64,000 bases of DNA from Leptothermofonsia sichuanensis E412. GTDB taxonomy: Bacteria; Cyanobacteriota; Cyanobacteriia; Leptolyngbyales; Leptolyngbyaceae. The stretch spans positions 4,402,001 to 4,466,000 of the forward strand of contig NZ_CP072600.1 in NCBI RefSeq assembly GCF_019891175.1. The letters are read 5' to 3'. Position numbers and translations under genes: made by a program. Below are positions 11,071 to 63,107 of this stretch, piece after piece (the first letter of the stretch is position 1; each line of letters begins with the position of its first letter). The notes beneath the pieces are model-generated. The model saw only the letters and a list, made by a program, of their open reading frames with translations. It had not been told where the DNA came from and searched no databases.

Positions 11071-12369
11071 ATGAGTAAGGACAATCTTATTGCATTTCAA
11101 GCTGGAGAATCATCGGCATCGTTTCGAGATGCCTTGACGGAACTGGTTCGTAACGGCGCTCGCCAGATCATTGCCGAAGTAGTGGAGGCAGAGTTGCAAG
11201 AGTTTTTAGCTCAATACAAAGACCTCAAAGACGAGCAGGGACGCAAGGCTGTGGTTCGCAACGGCTATCTGCCGGAACGCACGATTGTCACCGGGGTGGG
11301 GGAAGTTGAAATTCAAGTGCCGAAAGTGCGAGATCGCACCCATAGCGGCATCAAATTCAATTCCTCATTATTGCCGCCGTATCTGAAACGCGCTCAAAGC
11401 GTGGAAGAGGTGTTACCCTGGCTGTATCTTAAAGGCATATCCACCGGGGATTTTTCAGAGGCACTGGCATCATTGCTCGGTGCCCAAGCCCAAGGGCTAT
11501 CAGCCAGTACGATTAGTCGCCTCAAAGCGAAATGGCTTGAAGAACATCAACAATGGCAAAAGCGATCTTTAGCGGGTAAGCGGTACGTGTATCTGTGGGC
11601 GGACGGCATGTACTTCAACATCCGCAACGAAAATGACCGCCAGTGCATTCTGGTGACCATCGGGGTGACGGACACTGGAGTCAAGGAATTACTGGGACTG
11701 GAAGCAGGCTTTCGCGAATCCGAGTTAAGTTGGAAGCCGTTATTACTGCGCTTGCAAGACCAGGGACTCAAAGTGGCACCGGAACTGGCAGTTGGGGATG
11801 GCGCATTAGGGTTTTGGAAGGCATTGGCACAGGTTTTTCCCACGACTAAACCCCAACGCTGCTGGGTGCATAAAACTGCCAATGTGCTTAACAAACTCCC
11901 CAAAACGCAGCAACCGCAGGCGAAATCTGCCCTACACGAAATCTATCTTGCCGCGACGAAGGACGAGGCAAACAAGGCGTTCGACCGTTTTGTCAAAACC
12001 TATGAAGCCAAATACCCCAAAGCCGTGGACTGTTTAGTCAAAGACCGGGAGGCACTGTTGGCGTTCTATGATTTTCCGGCTGAGCATTGGGTGCATCTTC
12101 GCACCACCAATCCAATTGAATCAACCTTTGCCACTGTCCGTTTAAGGACCGATAAGACACGAGGCTGTGTTTCCCAGGACAGCATCCTATCGTTGGTGTT
12201 CAAGCTGGTGCAGAGTGCTCAGAAGCGTTCGCGTAGCGTGTGCGTAGCACTTAGGTTACGGATTCGAGGTTTTAAGCGATTAGCGGAGGTGATTGAAGGA
12301 GTCAAATTCAAAGATGGCATTCGCGTAGATCAACAACCCGATTTAGGAACCAGTCAGGACGCTGCTTAA
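11071..12369 (+). CDS. IS256-family transposase
   Basis: 432 residues, the usual length plus a few. The IS256 triad is visible: Asp in YLWADGMYF, Asp in LAVGDGALGFWKAL, and Glu in TTNPIESTFATVR. The C-terminus is typical (GFKRLAEVIEGVKF) but just before it KRSRSVCVALRLRIRGF replaces the expected KRWRRLRGF-like stretch, because a short GC-rich repeat (12226-12260) has entered in frame. Start ATG follows an A-rich leader. Possibly still active; the inserted residues are outside the known catalytic core. Confidence 0.93.
   Translation: MSKDNLIAFQAGESSASFRDALTELVRNGARQIIAEVVEAELQEFLAQYKDLKDEQGRKAVVRNGYLPERTIVTGVGEVEIQVPKVRDRTHSGIKFNSSLLPPYLKRAQSVEEVLPWLYLKGISTGDFSEALASLLGAQAQGLSASTISRLKAKWLEEHQQWQKRSLAGKRYVYLWADGMYFNIRNENDRQCILVTIGVTDTGVKELLGLEAGFRESELSWKPLLLRLQDQGLKVAPELAVGDGALGFWKALAQVFPTTKPQRCWVHKTANVLNKLPKTQQPQAKSALHEIYLAATKDEANKAFDRFVKTYEAKYPKAVDCLVKDREALLAFYDFPAEHWVHLRTTNPIESTFATVRLRTDKTRGCVSQDSILSLVFKLVQSAQKRSRSVCVALRLRIRGFKRLAEVIEGVKFKDGIRVDQQPDLGTSQDAA
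12226..12260 (+). repeat. Short GC-rich repeat inserted in the IS256 gene
   Basis: GTTCGCGTAGCGTGTGCGTA resembles the short 'CGTAGC' repeats scattered in cyanobacterial genomes and the piece near 5701 in this window. It keeps the reading frame. Confidence 0.6.
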
Positions 12370-12400
12370 TTCACCCTCGTACACCAGATTTGACAATAAC

Positions 12401-12659
12401 CCACCGAAACTTGCGGGAGCATCTGTTTCTATTTTTGGCAGACACAACGATTCCGCCGACCAATAATGCCAGTGAACAGGCGCTGCGGATGAGTGTGATT
12501 TTTCGCAAGGTGACCAATGGGTTTCGCTCCGAGTGGGGCAAAGATTTGTTCGCCGATATTCGTTCTGTGGTGAATACGGGTAAGCGTCAAGGGCTTTCTG
12601 CTTTTGAGTCCATTTCTGCGGCCTTAAACCCTCACCAATCCCTATTCCCGCTGAGTTGA
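12401..12659 (+). pseudogene. IS66-family transposase C-terminal remnant
   Basis: About 85 residues ending FESISAALNPHQSLFPLS. The block IPPTNNASEQALRMSVIFRK followed by TNGFRSEWGKDLFADIRSVV is typical of the C-terminal end of IS66-type transposases. The N-terminal 80-90% is missing, replaced by the IS256 element. Not functional. Confidence 0.82.
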
Positions 12660-12670
12660 GCAATTACCTT

Positions 12671-12719
12671 TTTTTCCAGACCGGATGCCTGCCATCCTGG
12701 GATGCGATGGAGCGGGCAT
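12671..12719 (+). pseudogene. 49-bp shred of a quinone oxidoreductase gene
   Basis: The stretch from TTTTTTTCCAGACCGG to GGAGCGGGCATT repeats, almost base for base, a piece of the oxidoreductase gene at 53567-53612 (which encodes FFSDRMPAILGCDGAGI). No other part of that gene is present here. Confidence 0.7.
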
Positions 12720-12852
12720 TCAGGAGCATCATCACTCAACTCGTTTTAGAGTAAAATCGGCTCAACATTGAGTCGGAACCTCTTTAGCTTCTCTTTATAA
12801 ATCAGCTCTAAAGGTTCCCTCTTTGAAGGGTTTCCTATTTAGCAGGAGAAGA

Positions 12853-12963
12853 ATGGAGAGCATTGATTGGATGACGGTAGTTCCTGTTGGGATGGCGATC
12901 GCGGTCTTTTTAGGAGGAATGCTGATGATGTTCACAGGTATCTGGACAACGAAGGATAAGTAG
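12853..12963 (+). CDS. Small single-span membrane protein (36 aa)
   Basis: MESIDWMTVVPVGMAIAVFL then GGMLMMFTGIWTTKDK. One hydrophobic span at about residues 8-29 and a lysine-rich tail. A strong AGGAGA site lies 5-10 bases before the ATG, and the next gene follows 44 bases later. Size and layout resemble the small subunits of thylakoid complexes, but I do not recognise it as any named one. Coding is supported by the ribosome site and composition only. Confidence 0.6.
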   Translation: MESIDWMTVVPVGMAIAVFLGGMLMMFTGIWTTKDK

Positions 12964-13007
12964 GAGCAGGTTGTTATGATGGCGAAGACAGTTTTAGAAA
13001 ATGTCGG

Positions 13008-13343
13008 ATGGAAATTAATCTCATCACTACGCTGGGTTTAACCGCAGGCGTTTTAACGACGATCGCCTACCTGCCGCAATTGATTAAAACCTGGAAAACC
13101 AAATCAGCCAATGATCTATCCTGGAGCATGCTGATTGTTCTCTGCATTGGAATTATTTTGTGGCTGATCTACGGTGTGATTGAGCAGGATCTTCCCCTCA
13201 TTTTTGCCAATGTAGTGACGTTTATCTTTGCGCTGATCATTTTGATCCTGAAAATTCGGTATCAACCTGGTAGCTCAGAAAATTCCGGCGATTATAGCAG
13301 GCAACCGGGGACAGGGGACGGGGGACAGGGAAAAACAGACTAA
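13008..13343 (+). CDS. SemiSWEET-type PQ-loop sugar transporter
   Basis: Three hydrophobic spans in the first 85 residues and the PQ-loop signature AYLPQLIKTWKTKSANDLSW identify a bacterial SemiSWEET, which works as a homodimer to pass small sugars across the membrane. The family is usually 85-95 residues; this one has 111. The extra tail (SRQPGTGDGGQGKTD) is encoded by a GGGGACAGGGGACGGGGGAC-type repeat at about 13300-13331, so it is probably not functional sequence. No clear ribosome site; the start was chosen because it gives the usual N-terminus. Confidence 0.88.
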   Translation: MEINLITTLGLTAGVLTTIAYLPQLIKTWKTKSANDLSWSMLIVLCIGIILWLIYGVIEQDLPLIFANVVTFIFALIILILKIRYQPGSSENSGDYSRQPGTGDGGQGKTD

Positions 13344-15281: not shown

Positions 15282-16103
15282 ATGACGAAACCTTCTCTCC
15301 TGAGAACCCCCAGCAGGCTGCTGCATTCTAAAATCGGCGTTGCTGAATCTGGGGATGAAAAAGGTGCTGGATGCTTGAAACGAAGTTTCAAGTCATTCTG
15401 CTTTTCAACCACGTCTTCTAAAATCCTTTTTGCTGCCGGGTTTGGTCTACTAAGCTGGCTGGTTTACGCCACCCCTGGTCTGGCAACCTCTGCCCAGGGC
15501 TATCGCCAGATGGGGCTGACCTATCGGAATCAAGAGCGCTATCCAGAGGCGATCGCAGCCCTGCAAAAAGCAGTTGACCTGGAACCTGACAATATTTCTG
15601 GAAGAGTGTTATTGGGATGGACTCAGCACCGGGCGGGAAAGTCCACTGAGGCAGCCGATACCCTTCTGCAAACGTTCTACCTTAACCCGTTTGATGTCTC
15701 TACCCTCAACGCCTTGGGCATTGTTTACCTGGTGAGTGGGCGGCTGGATGCGGCTGTTACAGTCCACACCTGGGCCGCCCTGCTCAAACCCGACAACGAA
15801 ATCGCCTATTACAACTTGAGCCTGGCGTTTGAACGGCTGAAACAATATGACTGGGCAGTGGCTATGGCCAGAGAAGCCGCAAAACTGGAGCCAGATAACC
15901 CCCATCCCCCTGTTGCAGAAGCGATCGCCCACTGGGGCAACGGCGATCGTCCCCTCGCCCAAAGCGCCTATCAGCAAGCCTTGACCTTAGATCCTCGCTA
16001 CAACGACCCCGCTTTCCTGGATTATCTAGACGAAGCAGGCTTCAGCCCTGACCAGATTCAAAGAACCAAACAGGTGCTTCAGGAATTGAGAGTTAAAAGC
16101 TGA
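15282..16103 (+). CDS. TPR repeat protein, probably exported
   Basis: 273 residues. A hydrophobic segment (ILFAAGFGLLSWLVY, about residues 47-62) followed by TPGLATSAQG looks like a signal peptide. At least four TPR units follow (YRNQERYPEAIAALQKAVDL, then VLLGWTQHRAGKSTEAAD and others). The first 45 residues are odd: bases 15336-15393, coding IGVAESGDEKGAGCLKRSFK, are the left half of the dispersed GGCGTTGCTGAAT repeat also at 23831. A later start near the signal peptide would avoid this, but no good ATG is visible there. Role unknown; likely a scaffold. Confidence 0.8.
   Translation: MTKPSLLRTPSRLLHSKIGVAESGDEKGAGCLKRSFKSFCFSTTSSKILFAAGFGLLSWLVYATPGLATSAQGYRQMGLTYRNQERYPEAIAALQKAVDLEPDNISGRVLLGWTQHRAGKSTEAADTLLQTFYLNPFDVSTLNALGIVYLVSGRLDAAVTVHTWAALLKPDNEIAYYNLSLAFERLKQYDWAVAMAREAAKLEPDNPHPPVAEAIAHWGNGDRPLAQSAYQQALTLDPRYNDPAFLDYLDEAGFSPDQIQRTKQVLQELRVKS
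15336..15393 (+). repeat. Half copy of the GGCGTTGCTGAAT repeat, inside a gene
   Basis: Shares GGGGATGAAAAAGGTGC exactly with the reverse strand of the element at 23831-23911 and keeps its core palindrome GAAACGAAGTTTC. The right half and terminal ATTCAGCAACGCC are absent. Confidence 0.75.
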
Positions 16104-20722: not shown

Positions 20723-20782
20723 GAAGAAGGAAGAAAGAAGATTGAAGAATTCTCATGTATCCCTCTTCTTTCTTCTCTCTTC
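20723..20782 (+). promoter_or_regulatory. Purine/pyrimidine hairpin between rbcL and rbcX
   Basis: A nearly pure purine arm (GAAGAAGGAAGAAAGAAGA, 20723-20741) pairs with a pyrimidine arm (TCTTCTTTCTTCTCTCTTC, 20764-20782) at 17 of 19 positions, followed by a pyrimidine tract with TTTTT. It could act as a partial terminator or processing site that keeps rbcX and rbcS messages lower than rbcL. Confidence 0.6.
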
Positions 20783-20800
20783 TCCCTTCTCTCTTTTTCT

Positions 20801-21760: not shown

Positions 21761-21929
21761 AGACAAAAAAGACATGGCAGCAACGCCATGTGCAACCTGG
21801 AAGCCAGGATCTCCGGTGTCTCCGTGGACTTCAATCCAATTTCAATCAATTGACTGGCTAACCTCTCCAGAATCGGGGATCTGAAGGCTGGTACACTTCG
21901 CGTCAGTAGCCATAGCCCTTTTCAAGGGT

Positions 21930-21970
21930 GTGAGGTACAGTAGGGTGCTCCGCACCCTACTGTACCTCAC
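21930..21970. repeat. Perfect 19-bp hairpin, second copy
   Basis: Same stem as 10786-10826, loop TCC. Confidence 0.85.
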
Positions 21971-22008
21971 ATCCCTGTACCTCATTCAGTTGAGAAACGC
22001 TATACCTA

Positions 22009-22566
22009 TTAACCCGGCAGCTTAAGAGCATGCAGAGTGAAAGAGGCAATCGGTACAATGGAAGCATGAATAAACCGGATGCCCGACTACTCGATCCAAA
22101 TACTCAAGATTATCTACGCCAACAAGCGATTCGGTTACGGCAGCAAGGGAAGCGATTTGTGGATATAGCCAGCTACTTAGGGGTACATCGCAACACCGTT
22201 TCAGACTGGTGGCAGCAGTACCAGGAACTGGGAGAACCTGCCCTGTATCAGCAGCAACGCGGACACAAAGTTGGGGGTGGACGCCCCTTAACTCAAGAGC
22301 AGGAAACCCATGTCCAGGAGAGGATGCAAGCCCATTTTCCCGATGAGTTGGAGATTGATAGTGCGCTGTGGACACGGCGTGCGGTGCAAGCATTGATTGA
22401 GCAGGCGTGTGGGGTTGAGCTGCCGATTTGGACGGTGGGGTTATATCTGTGGGGCTGGGGCTACAGTCCCCAGAAACCCCTGAAACGAGCTTATGAGCAA
22501 AACCCAGAAGCCGTGGAGGAGTGGCTAGAGCGAACCTACCCCCAGATTGAGCAACGGGCTAAAACT
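22009..22566 (+). pseudogene. IS630 element F, copy 2, truncated
   Basis: Left end TTAACCCGGCAGCTTAAGAG after TA at 22007-22008; transposase starts at 22030 and is complete to residue ~179 (EQRAKT), then lost. It lacks the whole catalytic domain. The flank is the same as that of copy 1, so the two were duplicated together and did not insert separately. One residue differs (GHKVGGG against GRKVGGG). Confidence 0.92.
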
Positions 22567-22627
22567 AGACTTTATTGGAAATAAGGATGTACTAGAAAAC
22601 GAACAGGCTTCTCCAACGATTGGTTAC

Positions 22628-23976: not shown

Positions 23977-25263
23977 TCAAATCAGCTCATCCAGATTCAG
24001 ATCTTCCGACGCTGGAGACAACTGTCCAGGTTTAGCTTCGGTCAGATTTTGTACAGCTTTTGCCACATCAATTCCAGTGGTTTGCTTCAACTGCTCAATA
24101 AAGCTGGCGGCTTTGACCGCACTGCTGCTCTGGTTGGGGCTGACAACGGTCACATTCTGGACATTCACATCAGGAACCGCAGAAGTCAGGGTTTGCAGCA
24201 GGGTTTCCAGACGTTGCAGCAGAAAAATGTCACGAGCATTAGCACCCGCTGTTTTCCAGGATTCTGCCAGACGCAGGGTTCCTTCGGCGCGGGCTTTGCC
24301 GTCTTCCACAATGCGGGCAGCATTTCCCTGCGCACGGGCGATCGCCTGCTTACAGTCTGCCTCCGCCGGGGCAATCACATCCGCCTGAAGTTGCTGCTCA
24401 ATATGCTTGATGCGTTCCTGCTGCACGGGGACTTCTGCCTGGATGCGGGCCAGTTCAGCGGCAATTTCAGCAATTGCCTCGGCGACCACCGCGTCTCGCT
24501 TGGTTATCGCGTCTGTGATCCGGCGTTCGGCTTCCGCATGGGCAATTCCAATATCCCGATCCAGCCGACTGAGTTCAGTTATTTTCTGGTTTTCAGCGGC
24601 TTGAATCGCCGATTCGGATTTTGCCTTCGCTTCGGCAATACGGGCGTCTCTGAGCAGGTCAGCCTGCTGCTTGCGACCAATGGAGTCAAGGTAACGAACA
24701 TCGTCGGAGATATTCTGGATCTGAAGGGTATCCAGCACCAACCCCAGCTTTTCCAAATCATCTTCAGCTTCGTCCAGCAAGCTTCTGGCAAAGGCAATTT
24801 TGTCTTCATTCACCTGCTCTGGAGTAAGGCTGGCAAGCACCCCCCGCAGATTGCCTTCCAGCGTTTCTTTGGCCATCTGCTCAATTTCCTGACGGCTCTT
24901 GCCCAGCAATCGCTCAATGGCATTATGAATGGCGGGTTCTTCCCCAGCAATTTTGATGTTTGCCACGCCTTCGACGGTCAACGGAATCCCACCCTTAGAG
25001 TAGGCATTGGACACCCGCAAATTAATAATCATATTACTCAAATCCATTCGCAGTGCCCGTTCCAGCAATGGCACGCGAATGCTGCTCCCCCCCTTGACCA
25101 GGCGATAGCCGACTCGACGCCCATCGGATAATTCGCGGGCACTGCCGGCAAAGATCAAAATCTCATTTGGCTGGCAAATGTAATAGAGGTTGCGGATCAC
25201 AAAAATCCCAGCTCCTGTCCCAACACCCAGGATGGCTAACAGGGCAGCGATCGCCTCAAACAT
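23977..25263 (-). CDS. Flotillin-like SPFH protein 1
   Basis: 428 residues. N-terminal hydrophobic hairpin/anchor (IAALLAILGVGTGAGIFVI, residues 4-22), an SPFH domain (NLYYICQPNEILIFAG to about residue 190, with RRVGYRLVKGG and NAYSKGGIPL), then a long Ala/Glu-rich coiled coil (about 205-330, EAKAKSESAIQAAENQKI). Flotillins form large cages that organise membrane microdomains. Paralogue of the gene upstream, with which it shares 'NAYSKGG.PL' and 'ETLEGNLRGV.A.LTPEQVNED'. Ribosome site AAGGAGGAA is strong. Last gene of a three-gene minus-strand run. Confidence 0.9.
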   Translation of the reverse strand: MFEAIAALLAILGVGTGAGIFVIRNLYYICQPNEILIFAGSARELSDGRRVGYRLVKGGSSIRVPLLERALRMDLSNMIINLRVSNAYSKGGIPLTVEGVANIKIAGEEPAIHNAIERLLGKSRQEIEQMAKETLEGNLRGVLASLTPEQVNEDKIAFARSLLDEAEDDLEKLGLVLDTLQIQNISDDVRYLDSIGRKQQADLLRDARIAEAKAKSESAIQAAENQKITELSRLDRDIGIAHAEAERRITDAITKRDAVVAEAIAEIAAELARIQAEVPVQQERIKHIEQQLQADVIAPAEADCKQAIARAQGNAARIVEDGKARAEGTLRLAESWKTAGANARDIFLLQRLETLLQTLTSAVPDVNVQNVTVVSPNQSSSAVKAASFIEQLKQTTGIDVAKAVQNLTEAKPGQLSPASEDLNLDELI

Positions 25264-25271
25264 CGATTCCT

Positions 25272-25323
25272 CCTTAAACTAATGGCTATCCTGTTGTCCT
25301 TAAACTAATGGCTATCCTGTTGT
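25272..25323 (-). repeat. 26-bp perfect tandem duplication at a gene junction
   Basis: Two adjacent copies of a 26-bp unit (CCTTAAACTAATGGCTATCC... on plus). One copy codes the last residues and stop of flotillin 2; the other supplies the spacer and part of the ribosome site of flotillin 1. Confidence 0.9.
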
Positions 25324-26684
25324 CCTTTTTGCCGATTCAATGTGGCGGCTACATCAATTCCCAGCGTGTGATCGACGTGTTGCAGGAACTGGCGCACAAT
25401 TTCGGGATACAGGTTGACCAGGGTGGTTAGAGATTTGCCATCGCCGTTGTCAATCACGTTGATCTGCTCCAGGTGTACCCGTTTGGGAATCTTTGCAGCC
25501 TCCTGAAGTACCATTTCAATTTGCTGAATCAAAAACAGTTCAGAGGCATCCACCCCGGTTTTTTGCCAGACCTTTGACAACATGTCATTGACCATGGCGG
25601 AGGCTTTAGCGTTTTCTGCCAGTGCCGCCGCGGCTCCTCGCGCCTGGAGGGTTTTTGCCTGTTTGTCTGCTTCGGCGGGCAACACCTTATCCGCTTCCAG
25701 ACGTAAACGCTCCAGTTCTGCCCGCACGGTTTGAAGCTGCTGTTCCGCTCTGGCTCTGGCTTCTTTCTCGGCGGCAATGGTACGCTCCTCTTCAGAGCGG
25801 GCTTTCTGCTCCAGTTCGGCTTTGATTTTGCGGAGTTCGTTCTGTTTTTGCTGGACGATACCCAACGTCTGGGATTTGGCAACTTCTGCCTGCCGCTGAC
25901 ACTCAGATACAATCTTTTCTGCCTGACTCAGCGCCTCTGCTTCAGCAATCTCGGCATCCCGGACAATTTGAGCAATTTGCTTGCGGCCAATGGAGCGCAA
26001 ATAGTCCATGTCATCCGTGACGCTCTGAATCTTCAGAGTGTCCAACTGCAATCCCAGTTTTGCCAGATCCCGCGAAACATCCTGGGCAATGCGCTCGGCA
26101 AATTTGAGCCGATCTTCATTGACCTGTTCGGGGGTGAGCAGGGCAACAACACCGCGCAGGTTACCTTCCAGGGTTTCCCTTGCTACAGAGGCAATTTCGG
26201 CGCGATCGCGGCGAAGAAAGCGTTCAATCGCATTGCCCACAATCTCCGGATCGCTGGAAATTTTGACATTGGCGATCGCCTGAATGTGCAGCGGGGTTCC
26301 ACCTTTAGAGTAGGCATTTTTTACTTCTACCGGAACCGGCATGGTGGTGAGATCCATCCGTTCCACTGTTTCCAGAATCGGGATCACAATGGTGCGCCCC
26401 CCAAAAATGACCCGATACCCCACTTCCTGCCCATCTTTTGTGCGATGTTTGCGCCCCGATAGAATCATGATCTCGTTTGGGTTGCAGATTTTCATGAAAC
26501 TGCTAATAAACCAGACCACCAGGATGGCGCCAAACACAGCCAGGGCAACGGGGAGGGCTGCTGGCAATGAACCCGCTTCCATTTTTTCAACCGTGGGATA
26601 GGGTTCGGCGTTGACCTGCTCTACCTGAACCAGAACCCCATCCTGTTCCAGACTGGTAACAAACTTAGGTTTCATATTGACCAC
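25305..26684 (-). CDS. Flotillin-like SPFH protein 2
   Basis: 459 residues. A Pro/Glu-rich N-terminus, a membrane span (ALPVALAVFGAILVVWFISSF, about 43-63), the SPFH domain (MKICNPNEIMILSGRKH onward), then a coiled coil rich in Glu/Ala/Arg (about 235-345, ELEQKARSEEERTIAAEKEA). The C-terminal part DASELFLIQQIEMVLQEAAK is the flotillin oligomerisation region. Likely forms mixed assemblies with the paralogue downstream. MKPKF, three codons in, is an alternative start. Confidence 0.9.
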   Translation of the reverse strand: MVNMKPKFVTSLEQDGVLVQVEQVNAEPYPTVEKMEAGSLPAALPVALAVFGAILVVWFISSFMKICNPNEIMILSGRKHRTKDGQEVGYRVIFGGRTIVIPILETVERMDLTTMPVPVEVKNAYSKGGTPLHIQAIANVKISSDPEIVGNAIERFLRRDRAEIASVARETLEGNLRGVVALLTPEQVNEDRLKFAERIAQDVSRDLAKLGLQLDTLKIQSVTDDMDYLRSIGRKQIAQIVRDAEIAEAEALSQAEKIVSECQRQAEVAKSQTLGIVQQKQNELRKIKAELEQKARSEEERTIAAEKEARARAEQQLQTVRAELERLRLEADKVLPAEADKQAKTLQARGAAAALAENAKASAMVNDMLSKVWQKTGVDASELFLIQQIEMVLQEAAKIPKRVHLEQINVIDNGDGKSLTTLVNLYPEIVRQFLQHVDHTLGIDVAATLNRQKGQQDSH

Positions 26685-29193: not shown

Positions 29194-30708
29194 CTACGAT
29201 AGCGGTTCATTCTGCTGACGGCTGCTGAGGGCGATCGCAATTGCATCCACGACTCTGGAAACCGGCACAATTTCCATCCCCAGGTCTGGAACGGATTGAC
29301 CTTTGGGGATAATTGCCTGCTTAAAGCCCAGTTTGGCGGCTTCTTTCAGCCGCAGTTCCATCTGAGACACAGGGCGCACCTGCCCCCCCAACCCCACTTC
29401 ACCAATCAGTACGGTTTGAGGGTCAACGACGCGATCGCGAAAACTGGCAACCACAGCAACAGCGACGCCCAAATCTGCGGCTGGTTCCCCAACATTCAGA
29501 CCACCGGAAGAAGCAACATAGGCATCCAGCTTGGAAAGCGGGATACCGACGCGCTTTTCCAGCACAGCCAGAATTTGGAGCAGGCGATTATATTCAATTC
29601 CTGTGGTAGAGCGGCGCGGCGAACTATAGCTGGTGGGGCTGACCAGTGCCTGCAACTCCACTACAATCGGTCGGGTTCCTTCACAGGCCACAATGGTGGC
29701 GCTACCAGGTGAATATTCTTCCCGATTCCCTAAAAACAGCTCGGAGGGATTCAGAACTTCTTCTAAACCCTGGTCTACCATTTCAAACACCCCAATTTCG
29801 TGGGTTGCCCCGAATCGATTTTTGACGGATCGCAGCAGGCGATGACTGGCAAAGCGATCGCCTTCAAAATACAGCACCGTATCGACCAGATGTTCCAGCA
29901 CCTTGGGACCGGCGATCGCCCCTTCCTTCGTCACATGCCCCACAATAAATAGCGTAATGCTCTGCCGCTTTGCCATTTGCATCAGTACCGACGTACACTC
30001 CCGCACCTGCGCCACCGACCCCGGTGCTGACGACAACGCATTAAAATAAAGGGCTTGAATACTATCAATCACAGCTACCTGGGGCTTGAGTGACTCCAGT
30101 TCCGCCAGAATGGTATCCAGATCGGTTTCGGGTAAGAGATAGAGGTTGGAGACCGGGTATCGGGTATCGGGTATCGGGGGCTGCCCTCCTGTCCTCTGTC
30201 CCCTGTCGCCTGTTCCCTGTTCCCTGTCCCCTACCCCCTGTCCTCCAACGCCCAATCTCTGTGCCCTCAATTTCACTTGCTGGGCGGACTCCTCAGCACA
30301 GACATAGAGGGTTCGGTGCCGATGGGACAGGGAGTTTGCCATTTGCAACAGCAGGGTAGACTTGCCAATGCCAGGGTCGCCACCAATTAAGACCAGGGAG
30401 CCAGGGACAATGCCGCCGCCCAGCACCCGATCCAGTTCAGTATAACCAGAGGAAAATCGGGTCTGGGGATGGTCTGCGACCTGATCCAGGGTTAGTGCCA
30501 CCCTGGGCTGGGGCGGAAGTTGGGAACTGGATTTCCCGCGAGTGCGTGCGGTAATCGCCATCCCTGATCGGGCAGCCAGGGGAGTCGAAGGTTCAATGAC
30601 CTGCTCTATTAATGCGTTCCAGGAACCACAGGCAGGACATTTCCCAAAATACTGAGAAGATTCTGCACCACACTGGTTACAAACAAAGTGCGATCGAACT
30701 TTAGGCAT
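29194..30708 (-). CDS. radA: DNA repair protein RadA (with repeat-coded insertion)
   Basis: 504 residues; the family is usually about 450-460. RadA is a RecA-like helicase that helps branch migration in recombination repair. N-terminal zinc finger (C10, C13, C24, C27), Walker A GGDPGIGKST at 109-118, the RadA motif KNRFG at 296-300, and a C-terminal Lon-like domain (GGLNVGEPAADLGVAVAV). Residues about 154-187 (GGQGVGDREQGTGDRGQRT and on) are alien: they are coded by a GGGTATC/CCCTGTC low-complexity repeat at 30151-30250. The frame is kept and all motifs are intact, so the protein is probably active. Confidence 0.96.
   Translation of the reverse strand: MPKVRSHFVCNQCGAESSQYFGKCPACGSWNALIEQVIEPSTPLAARSGMAITARTRGKSSSQLPPQPRVALTLDQVADHPQTRFSSGYTELDRVLGGGIVPGSLVLIGGDPGIGKSTLLLQMANSLSHRHRTLYVCAEESAQQVKLRAQRLGVGGQGVGDREQGTGDRGQRTGGQPPIPDTRYPVSNLYLLPETDLDTILAELESLKPQVAVIDSIQALYFNALSSAPGSVAQVRECTSVLMQMAKRQSITLFIVGHVTKEGAIAGPKVLEHLVDTVLYFEGDRFASHRLLRSVKNRFGATHEIGVFEMVDQGLEEVLNPSELFLGNREEYSPGSATIVACEGTRPIVVELQALVSPTSYSSPRRSTTGIEYNRLLQILAVLEKRVGIPLSKLDAYVASSGGLNVGEPAADLGVAVAVVASFRDRVVDPQTVLIGEVGLGGQVRPVSQMELRLKEAAKLGFKQAIIPKGQSVPDLGMEIVPVSRVVDAIAIALSSRQQNEPLS
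30151..30250. repeat. Low-complexity repeat inside radA
   Basis: Three GGGTATC units followed by CCTGTC/CCCTGT units. The same kind of repeat is found between genes at 13300, 31738 and 52385. Confidence 0.85.
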
Positions 30709-49085: not shown

Positions 49086-52000
49086 ATGCCCAATCTTCAG
49101 TCCTCTGGCTTCAGTTTCAGCAAGCTGTCCATCCGCCGTCATATTGGCATCCTGATGCTGATGCTGACCGTTCTGATTCTGGGCTGCTTCTTCCTGGTTC
49201 GCCTGCCAGTTGACCTGCTGCCCTCCATTACCTATCCCCGAATTGGAGTGCGCCTGGATGCCCCAGGCATTTCCCCGGAGGTTGGTGTTGATGAAATTAC
49301 CAAGCCCCTGGAACAGGCACTCTCCACGACAGAAGGAGTGGTTCAGATCTATTCCCAGACTCGGGAGGGGCAGGTCAGCCTGGACCTGTTTTTTCAACCG
49401 GGAAGCAACATTGACCAGGCGCTAAACGATGCCACCGCCACCTACAACCGCTATCGCAATCGCTTGCCGGATAATCTGGAGTCTCCCCGCATTTTCAAAT
49501 TTGACCCCACCCAACTGCCTGTGTATGAATTTGCGCTGACTTCTCCTAACCTGCGAGGTGTTGACTTGCGTGTGTTTGCCGATGAAGAACTTGCCCGCGA
49601 GTTGACGGTGGTACCGGGGGTTGCTTCGGCGGATGTCTCTGGTGGGGTGAAGGAGGAAGTGCGGGTCAAATTAGACCTGAAGCGTTTGCAGGCCCTGGGT
49701 TTGGGAATCAATGACGTTTTGGATGGACTGAGGCAACGAAACCAGGACATTTCTGGTGGACGGATTCTGGGACAGAATGCAGAACCCCTCACCCGGTCAA
49801 TCGGGCGGTTTCGGAATGCTGGGGAAATTCAAGAGTTGCAGTTTGAGGTCAGGAGTCAGCAGTCAACAGTCAGCAGTCAGGCGGGAAATTTAATTCCGAA
49901 CTCCGAACCCCCAACTCTGAATCGCTCTCAACGAGTTTACCTGCGTGACTTTGCCGAGGTGATCGACGGAACGGAAGACGAGCGGGTGCTGGTGAATTTG
50001 AATGGGGAACCAGCCGTCAAGATCAGCATCCAGAAGCAGCCGGAGGCAAATACGGTACAGGTTGTGGATGGGGTGAAACAGCGAATTGAGGAGTTGCGGC
50101 AGGCGGGGTTAATCACTGAAGACATGGTGCTGACAGCCACGCTGGATGAGTCCCGGTTTATCAACAATTCAATCGCCAATGTCACCACTGCCGGGCTGTC
50201 GGGGGCATTTTTAGCCGCGATCGCGGTGCTATTTTTCCTCGGTTCCCTGCGTCAAACGCTGATTATTGTGCTTGCCATTCCTCTGGCAAGCCTGGCAGCA
50301 GTGATCCTGATGGGGTTGTTTGGGCTGTCGTTGAATATTTTTAGTCTGGGTGGGCTGGCGATCGGCGTGGGCATTGTGGTAGACAACTCCATTGTCATGC
50401 TGGAAAACATTGCCCACCGGGTCAGTCGCCACTCGGTTCATGGCAATGGCAATGGGACTCATGGCAATGGCCGAACAGTAAGGGCAGACGGGGGGGAAGA
50501 TGAGGCATCGGTTCAATCGGCGATTTTTCCCAAAGCCCAAATTCTTCGGTTAGCAGAGTCTAGTGGTGAGGAGGTGGAGTCGGCTCTGGTAGCATCCACA
50601 GCAACAAATCTGGTGTCGGTATTGCCATTTTTGCTGCTGGGTGGGTTTGTCTCCCTGCTGTTTAATGAACTGATTTTGACGATTAGCTTTGCGGTGGCGG
50701 CTTCGCTGCTGATTGCGCTGACAGTGGTGCCAATGATGACTTCGCGGTTGTTAACCGTGCGCTGGTCCAGTGGTGTTGGTGAGTTCTGGCTGATTCGAGG
50801 ATTCAATCGCCGGTTTAATGCCATCACGTTGTCCTATGGCAGGTTGCTGGCGTCACTGATCAGGCGGCGATCGCTGGTAATTGCTGCTGCCGTACTCATT
50901 CTGGGCGGGGGAAGCCTGCTGATGGCAGGGCAAATTCCCCAGGAGGTGTTACCCCGGATCAATACCGGCCAGGCAACCCTGTTTGCCCAGTTTCCCCCCG
51001 GCACTTCTCTGGCAACCAACCGCCGGGTGATGGAAACCGTGGATGAAATTTTCCAGAAACAGCCGGAAACGGAGTACGCCTTTACCACAGTTGGGGGCAA
51101 CATCTTTGCCAGTTTTGTGTTCTCTAATCCCACCCGCGCTTCCAGCACAATTACACTGAAACCGGGCAGTGATGTGATTGCCTATACTCAGCGTGTCAGT
51201 CGGGAACTTGACAAACTCAACCTGGCAGGGATTCGTCTGCGGCTGGTGCCCGGTAATGTGCGGGGGCTGAACCTGAACAACTCTCCGATTCGCAACGCAG
51301 ACATCGATGTGGTGTTGCAAGGGCAGAATGGAGATGTTTTGCGGCAGGCCGGGCGGCAGGTCCTGGCGGCTCTGGATGAGAAGGTGACCCTGGCTAACTT
51401 CCGCCCCGATGGAGAGGATCGTCAACCAGAAGTGCAGATCAATCCCGATTGGGAACGGGTTGCTGCTTTGGGGCTAACTGCCCAGGATATCGGGAATACG
51501 GTGCAGACGGCGATCGAGGGTTCCATCCCAACTCGCCTCCAGCGACAGGAACGTCTGGTGGATATCCGGGTGCAACTGGATCAAAACCTGGTGCAACAAC
51601 CTTCCCAGTTACGTCAGTTACCCCTGTTTGCCAGTAACCGGGCTTTAATCCAACTGGGGGATGTGGCTCGAATTGAAGAAGGTCAGGCTCCCGGTGAAAT
51701 TCAGCGGATCAATCAGCGCTCTGTCTTCCTGATTGCAGGCAACTTGAACAGAGGGGCAAGTCTGGGGGCTGCCCTGGCTCAGGTTCAAACCACCCTATCA
51801 GAACTGGAACTGCCAGAGGGTGTGACCATTCTGCCCGGCTATGCCGCCCGCACCAGCCAGGAGTTGCAGGCTTCGCTCAAGATCCTGGGAGCACTGGCAG
51901 CCTTTCTGGTGTTTGTGGTGATGGCCGTGCAGTACAACTCTCTGGTTGATCCGCTGGTGATTATGCTCACGGTGCCCTTAGCTCTGGCAGGCGGCATTTT

Positions 52001-52460
52001 GGGATTGTTTGTCACCCAGACGGCGATCGGAATTACGGTTCTGGTCGGTGCGGTACTGCTGGTCGGGATTGTGGTGAACAACGCCATCATCATGGTTGAG
52101 ATGGCAAACCAGATCCGGGAGCAGGAAGGGGTAGACCGTGCCACCGCGATCCTGAAAGCTGCTCCCCAGCGCCTCCGCCCGATTATGATGACAACCATTA
52201 CCACCGTACTGGGTTTATTCCCACTGGCACTGGGGCTGGGTGAAGGGTCTGAGTTCCTTCAGCCATTGGGAATCGTGGTTTTCTCTGGTCTCTCCCTGGC
52301 AACCCTGCTGACCCTGTTTATCATTCCCTGTTTCTATGTCCTGTTGCATGAGTTGATTGGAACGTTGCAAGGGAAAACGGAAGTCAGGGTACCGGGTATG
52401 GGTTACCGGGTATGGGGTCGCAAGGAAGTGAAGGGAACGGGGGAACGGGAGAGGAGTTGA
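49086..52460 (+). CDS. RND-family efflux transporter permease (AcrB/HAE1-like)
   Basis: 1124 residues; relatives have 1030-1060. Twelve membrane spans in two halves, N-terminal PSITYPRIGVRLDAPGISPE (RND porter start), and GGLAIGVGIVVDNSIVMLEN in span 4, whose Asp residues carry protons. It pumps lipophilic compounds across the envelope, with a membrane fusion protein and outer-membrane channel that are not adjacent here. Two stretches are repeat-coded: residues about 253-279 (RSQQSTVSSQAGNLIPNSEP) from 49844-49924, and the tail after GKTEVRVPGMGYRVWG from 52380 on. A Gly/Asn/His-rich linker follows span 4 (HGNGNGTHGNGRT). Confidence 0.93.
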   Translation: MPNLQSSGFSFSKLSIRRHIGILMLMLTVLILGCFFLVRLPVDLLPSITYPRIGVRLDAPGISPEVGVDEITKPLEQALSTTEGVVQIYSQTREGQVSLDLFFQPGSNIDQALNDATATYNRYRNRLPDNLESPRIFKFDPTQLPVYEFALTSPNLRGVDLRVFADEELARELTVVPGVASADVSGGVKEEVRVKLDLKRLQALGLGINDVLDGLRQRNQDISGGRILGQNAEPLTRSIGRFRNAGEIQELQFEVRSQQSTVSSQAGNLIPNSEPPTLNRSQRVYLRDFAEVIDGTEDERVLVNLNGEPAVKISIQKQPEANTVQVVDGVKQRIEELRQAGLITEDMVLTATLDESRFINNSIANVTTAGLSGAFLAAIAVLFFLGSLRQTLIIVLAIPLASLAAVILMGLFGLSLNIFSLGGLAIGVGIVVDNSIVMLENIAHRVSRHSVHGNGNGTHGNGRTVRADGGEDEASVQSAIFPKAQILRLAESSGEEVESALVASTATNLVSVLPFLLLGGFVSLLFNELILTISFAVAASLLIALTVVPMMTSRLLTVRWSSGVGEFWLIRGFNRRFNAITLSYGRLLASLIRRRSLVIAAAVLILGGGSLLMAGQIPQEVLPRINTGQATLFAQFPPGTSLATNRRVMETVDEIFQKQPETEYAFTTVGGNIFASFVFSNPTRASSTITLKPGSDVIAYTQRVSRELDKLNLAGIRLRLVPGNVRGLNLNNSPIRNADIDVVLQGQNGDVLRQAGRQVLAALDEKVTLANFRPDGEDRQPEVQINPDWERVAALGLTAQDIGNTVQTAIEGSIPTRLQRQERLVDIRVQLDQNLVQQPSQLRQLPLFASNRALIQLGDVARIEEGQAPGEIQRINQRSVFLIAGNLNRGASLGAALAQVQTTLSELELPEGVTILPGYAARTSQELQASLKILGALAAFLVFVVMAVQYNSLVDPLVIMLTVPLALAGGILGLFVTQTAIGITVLVGAVLLVGIVVNNAIIMVEMANQIREQEGVDRATAILKAAPQRLRPIMMTTITTVLGLFPLALGLGEGSEFLQPLGIVVFSGLSLATLLTLFIIPCFYVLLHELIGTLQGKTEVRVPGMGYRVWGRKEVKGTGERERS
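49844..49924 (+). repeat. GTCAGCAGTCA repeat inside the RND gene
   Basis: GAGGTCAGGAGTCAGCAGTC, then AACAGTCAGCAGTCAGG and a CCGAACTCCGAACCCCC tail: the kind of tandem repeat found between genes at 31867-31948. It keeps the frame. Confidence 0.85.
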
Positions 52461-55030: not shown

Positions 55031-55315
55031 CTCCACTTAAGGTCTTTGAGATTGCTTTAAGAACACATTGTGTGTTCTACTTATCTACGCCATCATGGTT
55101 GGGTTATTCAATGGAGTTGCGATCGCATAAAAACTGAGCAAGCGGGATCAGCGATGTCGAGACCGCACGCAAGCACGTAGTTAAATTTCGATTGGAACGT
55201 TTACTAGGGTAAAACCTCAGTACAGGACAAAACTTGTCAATTGAGGCACACAGAGGGTTGAAAACTTAGGCGGGAAGGGGTTTCCTAGGAATAACAACAA
55301 ACCAACGAGACCCCC

Positions 55316-56410
55316 ATGCAACAGATTACCGAATTTCGCCAAGTTTTGCAGCCCCTCCTCGGTTGGCATGGTGCGCGGCTGGCATTTGTGGCTCAATTTC
55401 TGATCGCCCTGCTACGAACCCGTACGGTGAATCTGAGCGAATTGGCTGCTAGCTTTTGTGGTTCCGCCCAAATTCCGTCGAACTACAAGCGTCTCCAGCG
55501 CTTCTTTAGCGACTTTGATCTCGATTATGCGGCGATTGCCCGTGCCGTGGTCTGCCTGATGGGGATCCCGCAGCCTTGGGTGCTCGCCATAGACCGCACC
55601 GAATGGAGCTTTGGCGGTAGCGTTTTCAACATTCTCACCCTGGGCATTTGCCATCAGGGTATTTCCTTTCCGGTGGTGTTTCTGATGCTGGACAACCGCG
55701 GCAATTCCAACACCCAAGAGCGCATCGATTTGCTCAACGAATTCTTCACGATTTTTGGCGAGGATGTCCGCCTGCGGTGCCTGACGAGCGACCGCGAATT
55801 TGTTGGGCGGGAGTGGATTGGCTATTTGCTCGAAGATGAGCCAATCCCGTTTCGGGGGCGGATTCGCGAAACTGAAACGCTCAGTGATGGCAGCAAAGCC
55901 CTGAATGGCCGCGTCCTCTTTGCCGATCTCAAAGCGGGTGAAACCAAGATTTTACGCAAACGCCGTCAAGTGTGGGGACATTGGGTGTATGTCGTTGGTC
56001 TGCGGCTTGACACCCAGGAATTACTGATTTTGGTCACCAACCATTCACCCCATTCAGCCCTCAAAGATTACGCCCTGCGGTGGAATTTAGAAACCCTGTT
56101 CGGTGCGTTCAAAACTCGGGGCTTCTGCCTCGAAGCGACCCATTTTATTGATGACTACCGAGTCCGCAAGCTCTTTGCGCTCCTCACATTGGCGTTATGT
56201 TGGGTGATGCGAACGGGGGTGTGGCGGCAGGCGCACAAAACGATTCAACTCAAGTCCCATGGGCGCAAAGCCCAGAGTCTATTCCGATATGGCTTAGATT
56301 ACTTGCACAACCTACTCGTTAATCTTGACCATAAATTAGATGAGTTCTTGGACAATCTCAAACTTTTGTCCTGTACTTACAGCGGTTCTCAGATGAATAA
56401 GCCACAGTGA
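55316..56410 (+). CDS. IS4-family transposase
   Basis: 364 residues, intact. DDE/YREK residues: Asp in AIDRTEW, Asp in TSDREFVG, and YALRWNLETLFGAFK. Its natural TAG stop was the last codon of the element; element C inserted in that TA, so the frame now runs on and ends with ten foreign residues (YSGSQMNKPQ). The catalytic part is untouched, so activity is possible, but the right terminal repeat has been split from its last base. Confidence 0.95.
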   Translation: MQQITEFRQVLQPLLGWHGARLAFVAQFLIALLRTRTVNLSELAASFCGSAQIPSNYKRLQRFFSDFDLDYAAIARAVVCLMGIPQPWVLAIDRTEWSFGGSVFNILTLGICHQGISFPVVFLMLDNRGNSNTQERIDLLNEFFTIFGEDVRLRCLTSDREFVGREWIGYLLEDEPIPFRGRIRETETLSDGSKALNGRVLFADLKAGETKILRKRRQVWGHWVYVVGLRLDTQELLILVTNHSPHSALKDYALRWNLETLFGAFKTRGFCLEATHFIDDYRVRKLFALLTLALCWVMRTGVWRQAHKTIQLKSHGRKAQSLFRYGLDYLHNLLVNLDHKLDEFLDNLKLLSCTYSGSQMNKPQ

Positions 56411-57417
56411 TTGAACCAGCCAAGGGCATCGTCAGCAGAAATACACTCGTTGATAATCCTGGTTAAAGCTTGGTCGAGCGCTTCCTGCGTTCGAGCCTTG
56501 GCTGAATGCAGGAGCTGCTTGAGTTTTGACCAACATAGTTCAATCGGTGAAAGGTCTGGGGAATAAGGCGGCAGAAACACAACCTTGGCTCCAACCGATT
56601 CAATTGCCGCTTGCACGACTGAAGCATGATGCACGGGTAGATTATCCATCAGCACGATCGCCCCTACCCACAATTGCGGAATCAGAATCTCCTGGATGTA
56701 GAACAAGAACACGTCAGTATTGACACTGCCAACAATACTCATGCTAGCAATCAACCCATCAATACTCATGCCACCAATCAACGAGATATTCTTGCCCCCA
56801 TCGCCAGGAGCCTCAGTGTCATACAAGCGTTCACCGATGGGGGCACGACCAGACAAACGAGTCATTGCCAGATGGATGCCCGTTTCATCAATGAAAACCA
56901 AGTTGCGCGGGTCGATTGTAAAACTCCACAGGCGATAAGCAAACCGCAAATCCTTCACCCTTTGAGTATCTTGCTGGGAGGCAATCAGTGTTTTTTTTTG
57001 ACGCTGAGCTTGAGCTTAGACACAGCCTGTTGCATGGTTGATATACTCACCTCCACTCCACTTTGTTGGGCAAAGCGTTCACACAACTCCTTGAGTAGGG
57101 CATCCGGTTGAGCCGTGACTAGGGCTTCAACGATGGGCAACTGCTCTTTGCCCAACTTGGCAATGGCTCCTCCTCCGTGCGCTTTAGGCTCCACGGTGCC
57201 TGTCTCACAATAGTGTCGCCTTAGATCTCGAATGAACGATAAGCTCACCTTGAAGCGCTCTGCCAGTTGCCGTTGTGATCCTTCTTGAGCTTCATAGGCT
57301 GCCATGATTCGTTGCCGTAGATCAACTGACAGAGGGGCGGGCATAAGCAGCTAGCTCCTAGCTTTTGATAGTTGTTTTAGCCTACCAGAATGTGGCTTAC
57401 TCAATCAATAACGGCTG
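56380..57417 (-). mobile_element. IS630-family element C, copy 2 (1038 bp)
   Basis: TA at 56378-56379 and 57418-57419. Ends as in copy 1. Complete. Confidence 0.94.
56389..57344 (-). CDS. IS630-family transposase, element C (OrfA/OrfB by frameshift)
   Basis: OrfA (56985-57344) is a helix-turn-helix protein (AAYEAQEGSQRQLAERFKVS) ending KLSVKKKH. The T9/A9 run at 56991-56999 allows a -1 slip into OrfB, giving ...KKTLIASQQDTQRVKDLRF.... OrfB has LVFIDETG, IVLMDNLPVHHA and LSPIELCWSKLK, the DDE triad. An OrfB-only start MKDLRF (56958) is open but lacks DNA binding, so the fusion is the likely transposase. All parts intact; this is the best candidate for the active source of copy 1. Confidence 0.92.
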
Positions 57418-61238: not shown

Positions 61239-61742
61239 GTGAAAGCCATCCTCATTGTTCTGGGGAATCCTCCCAATCCCGATGGCAGCGTGAGTCGCAT
61301 CCTTCAATCCAGGTTAGATTTGGCGATCGCGCTCTATCACACAGGTAAGGTTCACAAACTGATTCTGGCCGGAAGTGCTGTTTACAATCAACATATAGAA
61401 GCAAAAATCATGGAAAAATATTGCCTGGAACAAGGAGTTAAGGCAATCGATATATATGTCGAATGTTTATCAAGAAATACTTACGAAAATGCACTATATT
61501 CTGCATCTATAGTTCATTCTAAAAGTCAACATCCAGTCATCGTGATCACTTCTCATTTTCATCGACTCCGAACAACAATCATCTTTCAGCATTACTTTAA
61601 ACACTTTCAAATTTTGACTCCTCCATTGATATGGACAGACTTTGTCAGATCTTGGCATCTTTATCTTTGGGAAATCTATTTGACAACAAAGTTACTTGTT
61701 CTAGGTGATGACAGGTTGACAAGAAAGTCTATTTCTCCTTAA
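61239..61742 (+). CDS. YdcF/SanA-like DUF218 protein
   Basis: 167 residues; GTG start overlapping the previous stop (GTGA). DUF218 motifs: AILIVLGNPPNPDGSVSRIL at the start (the VLG loop), LILAGSAV, CLEQGVKAIDIYVECLSRNTYENA (the S-x-NT-x-EN motif) and VIVITSHFHRLRT. Members act in envelope metabolism (ElyC/SanA) or vancomycin tolerance; here there is no N-terminal membrane span, so it is the short soluble form. Translationally coupled to the VOC domain gene. Confidence 0.85.
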   Translation: MKAILIVLGNPPNPDGSVSRILQSRLDLAIALYHTGKVHKLILAGSAVYNQHIEAKIMEKYCLEQGVKAIDIYVECLSRNTYENALYSASIVHSKSQHPVIVITSHFHRLRTTIIFQHYFKHFQILTPPLIWTDFVRSWHLYLWEIYLTTKLLVLGDDRLTRKSISP

Positions 61743-61768
61743 ACAATTTAGGATCAGTATTCAGCAAA

Positions 61769-62683
61769 ATGACAACCTATCGACTAGAGGATTTAGGCTG
61801 TGGTGAAGCACTCCGTGCGATCCTGCGGGAAGAGATTTCAGACGCAGAAATTGCAGCGATTGAATCTACCATCCGGCCCTTTGTTGCTATCGAAACTACG
61901 GTTTCCGGAAGTAATTCGCCCCTACCCTGGGAAAGCCGATTTGGTGGAAGACCTTATCTTCCCACAGGAACTGACTATCCTCACATTGACGGCAAACCAG
62001 CACCCTTGCTAGCCCAGATCAATTTTGCCGAGGTGCCTCCGTTAGAAGGGTTTCCTACGTCAGGGATCTTGCAGTTCTATGCAGTGGACAAGCCCACCTG
62101 GCAATGGAACCATTCCTGGTTCGCCACAGAAGGCCGGACATCAATGTCCTATGGAGAACTCATGGAACTGGCAGGGGCAAAGGTTCTCTTTTTCCCAGAG
62201 CCTATCCTCTCGGTTAAAGCGGTGACCACTGACTTCAGGTTTCTCCCCTCGTTTGAGCATTCGCTCGTACCGGAGAGACTTGATCTCCGCTTTCAAATCC
62301 AACTTGCACCGATGGATGTAGGCGGTTTAAACACCTGGGTCGAAACATTGAGGGAAAGCGAATTCTTTGCTGAAAACTATGACTATGCGCTTAGAGAACT
62401 TAGCGATCGCACCAGCAATGATCCGTCGCTAGAAGAAGCCGCACACCTTTTGTATGGTGACGGACACCGTTTGGGTGGCTATCCCGCCTTTAGCCAATCT
62501 GATCCTCGCACGCAACTGTTTCCCCTCGCTTTTGGTGAAAGCTTTCCGCCCTATGATTTGCTGTTCCGGATGGTGGGTCAACCGGGAGTGAATCTGCATG
62601 ATTCAATTCTTTATTTCTTAATTCCACCTGCTGATTTGCAAAGCAGAGATTTTTCTAACGTTCTGTTTTATAGCGATCGCTAG
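61769..62683 (+). CDS. DUF1963 (YwqG-like) protein
   Basis: 304 residues. The DUF1963 pattern is clear: SRFGGRPYLPTGTDYPHIDG, then PLLAQINFAEVPPLEGFPTSGILQFY and, near the end, HRLGGYPAFSQSDPR. The fold is a duplicated beta-domain of unknown role. ATG lies 26 bases after the DUF218 stop, so the two are probably one unit. A HIP1-like GCGATCGC is within the coding sequence near 62404. Confidence 0.9.
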   Translation: MTTYRLEDLGCGEALRAILREEISDAEIAAIESTIRPFVAIETTVSGSNSPLPWESRFGGRPYLPTGTDYPHIDGKPAPLLAQINFAEVPPLEGFPTSGILQFYAVDKPTWQWNHSWFATEGRTSMSYGELMELAGAKVLFFPEPILSVKAVTTDFRFLPSFEHSLVPERLDLRFQIQLAPMDVGGLNTWVETLRESEFFAENYDYALRELSDRTSNDPSLEEAAHLLYGDGHRLGGYPAFSQSDPRTQLFPLAFGESFPPYDLLFRMVGQPGVNLHDSILYFLIPPADLQSRDFSNVLFYSDR

Positions 62684-62720
62684 TGAACTCAATTAGTGAA
62701 CCCAACCTCAGGAGTCCAGA

Positions 62721-63107
62721 ATGAACCCAAATTCTCAGGCCACATTTTCGGGAGGCAGCAATATTGCCCTTAAAATTCCTCGATTTCGGTTTGCAGAAAC
62801 CGTTGCTTTTTATCGCGATACATTGCGATTACCTTACCTGGGACAACGGGACACCTCCTATGTATTTCAGTTTGGAACGATGCGACTGTGGTTGGATGAA
62901 GTGGGAGCATCGCAGTTGGGCAACAGGCAGCCCTCATCCCCCAACCCCTTCTCCCAAAAAGGGCGAAGGGGAGCCGGATTTTCAAGTCCCTCTCCCGTTC
63001 TGGGAGAGGGATTTAGGGTGAGGGTCGCATTTCGCGGCCACTGGATCTCGGACCCCGCAGGGGTAGTGCATCTCCTTTCCCACAATGAGGAGGTGCAACT
63101 GGTATGA
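62721..63107 (+). CDS. VOC-like protein with repeat-coded middle (probably damaged)
   Basis: 128 residues. The first 65 (IPRFRFAETVAFYRDTLRLP, TMRLWLDEVG) and the last 20 (HWISDPAGVVHLL) are VOC/glyoxalase-like. Between them, SSPNPFSQKGRRGAGFSSPS and VLGEGFRVRV are coded by a dispersed repeat (62930-63026) that seems to have replaced about 40 residues of the fold. The frame is open but the domain is probably not functional. The stop overlaps the next start (ATGA). Confidence 0.7.
   Translation: MNPNSQATFSGGSNIALKIPRFRFAETVAFYRDTLRLPYLGQRDTSYVFQFGTMRLWLDEVGASQLGNRQPSSPNPFSQKGRRGAGFSSPSPVLGEGFRVRVAFRGHWISDPAGVVHLLSHNEEVQLV
62930..63026. repeat. GGGAGAGGG-type dispersed repeat inside a gene
   Basis: Contains CCCTCTCCC-GTTCT-GGGAGAGGG, a perfect 9-bp hairpin, plus CTTCTCCCAAAAAGGGCGAAG and GGATTTAGGGTGAGGG, the typical parts of a repeat seen in many bacterial genomes between genes. 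Confidence 0.8.

Follow-up and report, generated by a model that had tools for sequence, protein, structure and literature searches.

Repeats of non-coding DNA that extend into reading frames have been described in several groups of bacteria. According to the accessible parts of the articles cited here, Rickettsia palindromic elements (RPEs) of about 105-146 bp lie in frame inside unrelated conserved genes and are apparently tolerated there (PMC2229807). Repetitive extragenic palindromes (REPs) of the GTAG/CGTC families have in-frame carriers in many species, including many DNA-repair genes, and in two species a REP hits recB at roughly the same position (PMC3733652). In the short tandemly repeated repetitive (STRR) sequences of the trnL intron, two complementary classes of 7-nt repeats build the P6b stem (PMC4476775). 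The GGGNATC heptads of Xanthomonas and Nostoc are over-represented in non-coding and under-represented in coding DNA; downstream of a stop codon their G-rich strand is the sense strand, and upstream of an open reading frame (ORF) it is the antisense strand (PMC4692102). Here we analyzed a 64-kb stretch of the cyanobacterium Leptothermofonsia sichuanensis E412 (the window; GC content 50%), which lies inside a single contig of 6,426,061 bases and in which arrays of 7-nt units (heptads) form part of several protein-coding genes. A preliminary description of the window had regarded such capture of repeats by reading frames as little described outside Rickettsia. As far as the accessible parts of the two articles go, the REPs inside ORFs of many bacteria (PMC3733652) and the in-frame elements related to enterobacterial repetitive intergenic consensus (ERIC) sequences and other miniature inverted-repeat transposable elements (MITEs) (PMC2229807) contradict this view. 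In-frame repeats of the RPE, ERIC-like, MITE and REP types, as well as cyanobacterial heptads, are already known.

The heptads studied here resemble those of the STRR sequences in their 7-nt units and in being dispersed and mostly intergenic. They differ from the STRR and trnL P6b heptads in that they also lie inside protein genes, form blocks of several unlike heptads and follow a fixed order from G-rich to C-rich. Like RPEs, these blocks are found in frame inside unrelated conserved genes; unlike RPEs, they lack a consensus, occur in many types of varied length and order, and have only period and polarity in common. The positional bias reported for the GGGNATC heptads would give the same G-then-C order between aligned genes, whereas the pair-polarity rule and the protein loops reported here were not found in the accessible part of that article (PMC4692102). 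We found no description of the pair polarity, of a survival test of the kind used below or of heptad capture in the RadA, RND and DinB/FGE loops, although our coverage of the literature is incomplete and an earlier description may exist. The results make it likely that heptads are tolerated in genes rather than actively turned into protein, and that the copies seen in genes are survivors in permissive loops.

For a chromosome-wide view, the window was combined with 60 evenly spaced 20-kb stretches of the same genome (G000) into a sample of 1.264 Mb, in which our own hexamer-based caller identified 1174 genes covering 81.5% of the sequence. This sample contains 134 arrays at lag 7. The corresponding counts for lags 5, 8 and 10 are 4, 4 and 5, and those for lags 6, 9, 11, 12, 13 and 15 are 17, 14, 12, 30, 34 and 46, respectively; lags 14, 21 and 28 are whole multiples of the heptad length. 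Heptads are far above chance in this sample. Their commonest units, with complements pooled, are ACTCCTC, ACAGGGG, AGAGAGG and AAGGCAG or AGGAGGG. After merging, 128 heptad clusters were obtained. They are dispersed and mainly intergenic, with 102 of them located in the 18.5% of the sequence that lies between genes. The other 26 (20 internal, five C-terminal and one N-terminal) are spread over 21 called genes. Cluster density is 0.0252 per kb in genes and 0.4366 per kb between them, so that the genic value amounts to 5.8% of the intergenic one.

The preliminary description had inferred from the number of affected genes that this genome converts spreading repeats into protein, and had named in-frame cases no commoner than chance survival as its refutation. 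The expected number of genic clusters was calculated from uniform insertion followed by a frame filter (1/3) and a stop filter (0.685 open per random frame). With these two filters alone, 102.7 genic clusters are expected in G000 and 26 were observed, a ratio of 0.25. In related genomes the observed and expected numbers are 19 and 28.9 in G015 (ratio 0.66; 400 kb sampled), 19 and 28.6 in G006 (0.66; 200 kb) and 1 and 4.5 in G023 (0.22; 200 kb). Thus, repeat-coded residues do recur in unrelated genes, but the samples of all four genomes hold fewer in-gene heptads than the frame-and-stop expectation and none shows an excess over chance survival, the outcome that had been named as refuting conversion. 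This test covers heptads only. That all cases are in frame, as had been stated, is a survivor effect. Of the 26 genic clusters, 24 have a sense strand that is open in every frame. Among the 102 intergenic clusters, a given strand is open to this extent in 59, and 84 have at least one strand open in all frames. The window itself is not significantly enriched: it holds three genic heptad clusters where 1.23 are expected from the other 1.2 Mb (Poisson P of approximately 0.13). By simple scaling, the whole genome would hold about 130 genic heptad clusters, and the phenomenon is still common. In the G006 sample, genic clusters occur approximately once per 10 kb, and one 5-kb stretch (L274, 4499-9254) contains five of them in three neighbouring genes.

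The clearest case in the window is radA. On its sense strand the block consists of GGGGACA-like heptads followed by CCCGATA heptads, and residues 154-186 of the protein correspond in the alignment to just three residues of pneumococcal RadA (5lkm), which confirms that RadA carries repeat-coded residues. At a score limit of at least 11, lag-7 arrays were detected in the RadA loops of seven genomes (G000, G015, G023, G027, G004, G020 and G032) among 50 loops, two of which were too short, and one further loop (G014) carries an 8-nt array. The loop of G001, which belongs to the same genus as our organism, has no array (score 5). Among 80 named genomes, some of which are the same organisms as the G-numbered ones, nine have loop arrays at lag 7, as opposed to 0, 3, 0, 0 and 0 at lags 5, 8, 10, 11 and 13. 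In Stenomitos, Tildeniella and Lyngbya HA4199 a chain of unlike heptads makes up much of a RadA loop of 75-84 residues. On a RadA tree built without the loop, carriers account for 12 of 85 rows (82 of them different) and require at least nine changes of heptad state, five of which are forced by starred branches; the tree was made by a quick method and has weak forks. By RadA the source organism groups with Leptolyngbya-like cyanobacteria, the nearest named row being Leptolyngbyaceae cyanobacterium HOT.MB2.61, which shares an identical RadA core with the congeneric G001. Outside the loop, RadA is under strong purifying selection (dN/dS, the ratio of nonsynonymous to synonymous substitution rates, of 0.055 against G001 over 467 codons, with synonymous changes near saturation). 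A structure model of poor quality (mean predicted local distance difference test score 63.7, 29 sequences) places the insert as a coil between a predicted helix (142-151) and a predicted strand (189-192); none of our conclusions rests on this model. In one contig (L341), labelled as a metagenome-assembled genome of Tatlockia (Legionellaceae), the RadA sequence nests with those of Chroococcus and Chlorogloea; the contig is probably cyanobacterial and misbinned.

The RND pump of the window contains repeat-coded residues as well, as had been proposed. In one of its loops, a GTCAGGA-type array (49848-49880) is followed by a CCGAACT-type stretch, and the C-terminal tail is partly made of two copies of a 14-mer. 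The loop measures 5-11 amino acids in seven parsed relatives, and it bears different heptads in three genera (G000, G015 and G010). This comparison started from 30 loci, seven of which were off the motif used and left out; of the 23 parsed, 22 were scored, since one loop was too short. The repeat-coded tail of SemiSWEET holds up too: it is a C-terminal extension, and five of six homologues compared (eight were matched) stop 20-25 residues earlier, the sixth (L222) having an unrelated long tail. Furthermore, a DinB/FGE linker carries an array in two genera (L085 in G000 and L190 in G015).

Outside the window, 14 sampled genes have internal arrays, and 13 of them were scanned against Pfam (L093 was left out). 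Matches were obtained for all but L073. As far as can be judged from best-scoring stretches, which make the placement approximate, the arrays lie between or outside domains in nine genes, namely those for RecQ (between HRDC and HTH_40), HerA, an SNF2-type helicase, DinB/FGE, the CheA-like L046, L080, L058, L069 and L042 (one of its two arrays). They lie inside a domain in three, namely CobN/Mg-chelatase (two arrays), carbamoyltransferase and glutaminase, where the best domain match stops at the array. Gene names used throughout, such as rbcL, SbcC and SemiSWEET, derive from Pfam for some genes and are presumptive for the others. Repair, recombination and helicase genes appear to recur among the carriers: SbcC-like (five arrays, L185:7914-11195, G015), RecQ, HerA and SNF2-type helicase (L082, L076 and L053 in G000), and RadA.

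The composite blocks obey a fixed order. When neighbouring arrays of opposite G/C skew lie within 120 nt of each other, the G-rich array precedes the C-rich one in 48 of 49 pairs (15/15 in G000, 10/10 in G015 and 23/24 in G006; G023 has no such pairs), and the same is true of all ten pairs inside single genes. An intergenic block of this kind, with a hairpin-like GAAGAAG...CTTCTTC, follows a gene of the window which we take to be rbcL. The polarity loosens with distance, being 19:1 in G000 and 11:3 in G015 for pairs up to 1000 nt apart. Three simple explanations were considered. An origin from the direction of the flanking genes is not supported, with 25:1 pairs between aligned, 4:0 between convergent and 5:0 between divergent genes, and 10:0 inside genes. 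A long-range strand bias is not supported either, as pairs 500-10,000 nt apart show 233:200, with G000 (74:42) and G015 (26:40) leaning in opposite ways. Plain hairpin complementarity accounts for the polarity only in part: complementarity of at least 12 of 14 positions is slightly more frequent within blocks than across blocks (0.29 vs 0.16), and some arms are complementary, while the two sides of a block often differ in their unit. Arrays of other periods yield one opposite pair only and therefore provide no control. Since the order of a block is equal on both strands, either strand codes for a G/R/E/Q/S-rich peptide followed by a P/T/S/N/H-rich one, as in RadA.

Four further cases that the preliminary description had counted as captured repeats fared less well. 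The IS256-family transposase does contain a net insert of eight amino acids, whose motif is exact in all three full genomic copies and missing from a broken paralogue at 650059 and from the G007 copy. Within this genome the motif does not behave as a spreading repeat, being present at only two other places with up to three mismatches. Over exactly 1421 nt, including the insert, the window copy and the one at 1090572 show 100% identity, and their flanks differ; thus, transposition of the insertion sequence (IS) took place after the insert had arisen and was not prevented by it. The VOC gene does contain repeat-coded residues, but 127 nt of a REP-like element replace 121 nt of the conserved core (approximately 40 codons) rather than being added to it. 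In G023 the core of the orthologue (L150; 66% identity) is intact, and a TPR gene lies downstream, which is also the arrangement in the window. The orthologue matches Glyoxalase weakly, short of the curated cut-off (E 0.0032), and the window protein does not match at all. The flanking parts of the VOC gene give dN/dS values of 0.22 (60 codons) and 0.50 (25 codons), which are too few codons to decide. The gene in the window is probably a pseudogene in which the element replaced the core and the frame survived by chance. Folded with RNA parameters, 85 nt of the element give two hairpins (-45.2 kcal/mol). It thus has palindromic hairpins in common with REPs, which are tagged palindromes 20-40 bp long, and inspection by eye revealed neither a GTAG nor a CGTC tag on either strand of the 85 nt folded. 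Dozens of matches to it are present in several distant cyanobacteria (G039, G042, G050 and G037), many of them in open frames. The putative leader of the TPR reading frame is made of a dispersed repeat, with 21 matches at E of at most 0.05 including the window's own (19 intergenic and two genic) and 17 at E of at most 0.001 in the 1.264-Mb sample, but comparison with homologues does not fix the start codon. The ClpB tail has to be withdrawn as a capture, as it matches the four homologues compared except for its last four residues. The coordinates of all these features are compiled in Table 1.

Table 1. Positions within the window of repeat-coded and related features.
Position	Strand	Feature	Basis or remark
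12228-12255	+	Short insert in IS256-family transposase (11071-12369) adding a net 24 nt (8 aa)	Copy comparison
13307-13330	+	3' end of SemiSWEET gene (13008-13343), GGGGACA-type heptads, C-terminal extension	Comparison with homologues
15301-15375	+	Dispersed repeat at 5' end of longest TPR reading frame (15282-16103)	Repeat search; gene caller start 15375
20723-20795		Intergenic composite heptad block, same G-rich to C-rich polarity	Just after stop codon of presumed rbcL
30154-30239	-	Composite heptad block inside radA (29194-30708)	Lag-7 score 23; codon-shuffle p 0.001
42246-42260	+	ClpB C-terminal codons	Tail native except for at most four residues
49848-49931	+	Heptad-coded loop of RND pump (49086-52460)	Lag-7 score 17; codon-shuffle p 0.001
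52386-52460	+	C-terminal tail of RND pump, two 14-nt copies (TACCGGGTATGGGT)	Matches of full-length relatives stop at about residue 1089-1102 of 1124
62903-63029	+	Two-hairpin REP-like element in core of VOC gene (62721-63107)	Alignment with G023 orthologue

Three other observations in the window concern repeated DNA of different kinds. A near-perfect palindrome of 55 nt is present in two copies (87%) at 10779-10833 and 21923-21977, beside the ORFs 9623-10726 and 22030-22584; the copies possibly represent ends of an IS or MITE. Scattered pieces at 61-298, 1507-1806, 2603-2763 and 3891-4190 show 99-100% identity to a transposase-like region at 55215-56834. A perfect 26-nt tandem duplication (25271-25327) lies between the related minus-strand genes 23977-25263 and 25305-26684.

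Taken together, we consider tolerance to be the probable explanation of the heptads found in genes. STRR-type heptad blocks would arise or land chromosome-wide by insertion or repeat growth that is blind to genes, and selection would remove most of those that fall into genes. A minority would survive when its net length keeps the frame, aided by the fact that in this genome of 50% GC most heptad clusters have one strand that is stop-free in any frame. The survivors would be found at termini, in interdomain linkers or in loops tolerant of many hydrophilic peptides, and permissive loops such as RadA 153-188 would then be filled and rewritten in different genera, with the peptides having no function of their own. 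Several points weigh against this explanation. In G015 and G006, where heptads are dense, survival is as high as 0.66 of expectation, above what would be predicted if most codons were intolerant. Besides tolerance, the recurrent filling of particular loops could reflect a benefit at these sites or a local source of repeat growth. Some captures may represent growth of a seed already present in the gene, as only survivors are visible. The RadA carriers are somewhat clustered on the tree (nine changes against a mean of 11.4 for shuffled labels, with six of 500 shuffles as low), and part of the recurrence is therefore inheritance. Elements of the VOC type have five genic and three intergenic matches in the 1.264-Mb sample, a tiny number in which one genic match is the window's own, two lie in one gene and one lies in a 70-codon ORF. 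Moreover, genes were called by our own hexamer-based program, with which broken genes would count as intergenic, and the inserted peptides are predicted from the reading frames.

The alternatives discussed in the following are not mutually exclusive. Growth within genes, in which slippage expands short G-rich or C-rich coding seeds and the frame is kept stepwise (three heptads equal 21 nt or seven codons), is possible, though on balance unlikely; it concerns the origin of the blocks only and is compatible with tolerance. Several heptad types in series, the 8-nt variant in G014 and degenerate units are what local turnover predicts, and trnL P6b stems differ by 7- or 14-nt insertions of the repeat motif, according to the accessible part of PMC4476775. 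A single 7-nt slippage step, however, shifts the frame, and slippage from one seed does not give the two-part G-then-C build that genic (10/10) and intergenic blocks have in common. This build would follow if heptad blocks were scars of double-strand-break repair, in which a stuttering, telomere-like synthesis adds G/T-rich heptads to both 3' ends before these are joined. Such joining would give G-rich-then-C-rich order on either strand, unlike units on the two sides and no native sequence inside. We regard this origin as rather improbable; if it were true, RadA and other loops would record past breaks, and proteins would inherit scars where a loop tolerates them.

That blocks are actively captured or favoured, being kept because their peptides are useful as hydrophilic spacers or in the regulation of DNA-repair enzymes, appears quite improbable. 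The same loops hold arrays in several genera, RadA, RecQ, HerA, SNF2-type and SbcC recur among the carriers, and repair genes are likewise numerous among the REP carriers in the accessible part of PMC3733652. The missing excess over chance survival in four genomes argues against it, however, as does the loop sequence, which is unconserved, with 71 of the 80 named RadA loops having no array. We attach equally little probability to an insertion of mobile palindromic elements of the RPE or REP/MITE type into genes, the heptads being their degenerate remains. The VOC element, with its two hairpins and its repetition in several cyanobacterial genomes, as well as the inverted composition of the heptad blocks and the complementarity of some of their arms, would fit such an origin, but the blocks have no common unit or fixed length, and complementarity within them is barely above that across blocks. 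Chance or a gene-calling artefact, with low-complexity coding sequence acquiring a period of seven by accident, could account for short arrays of 18-21 nt, which lie at the score limit, and has the 4-5 arrays at lags 5, 8 and 10 and the 12-46 at some other lags in its favour, but it is contradicted for long arrays by the count at lag 7, by the codon-shuffle result for the RadA and RND loops (p 0.001) and by the loops of most relatives, which lack the sequence, and is practically negligible.

Overall, comparing survival with a frame-and-stop expectation answers quantitatively, for heptads and in samples of four genomes, whether repeats become protein. In the RadA, RND and DinB/FGE loops, non-coding DNA became protein more than once, and the fate of such peptides is testable. 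The polarity rule sharply constrains models for the formation of cyanobacterial heptads and is easy to check.

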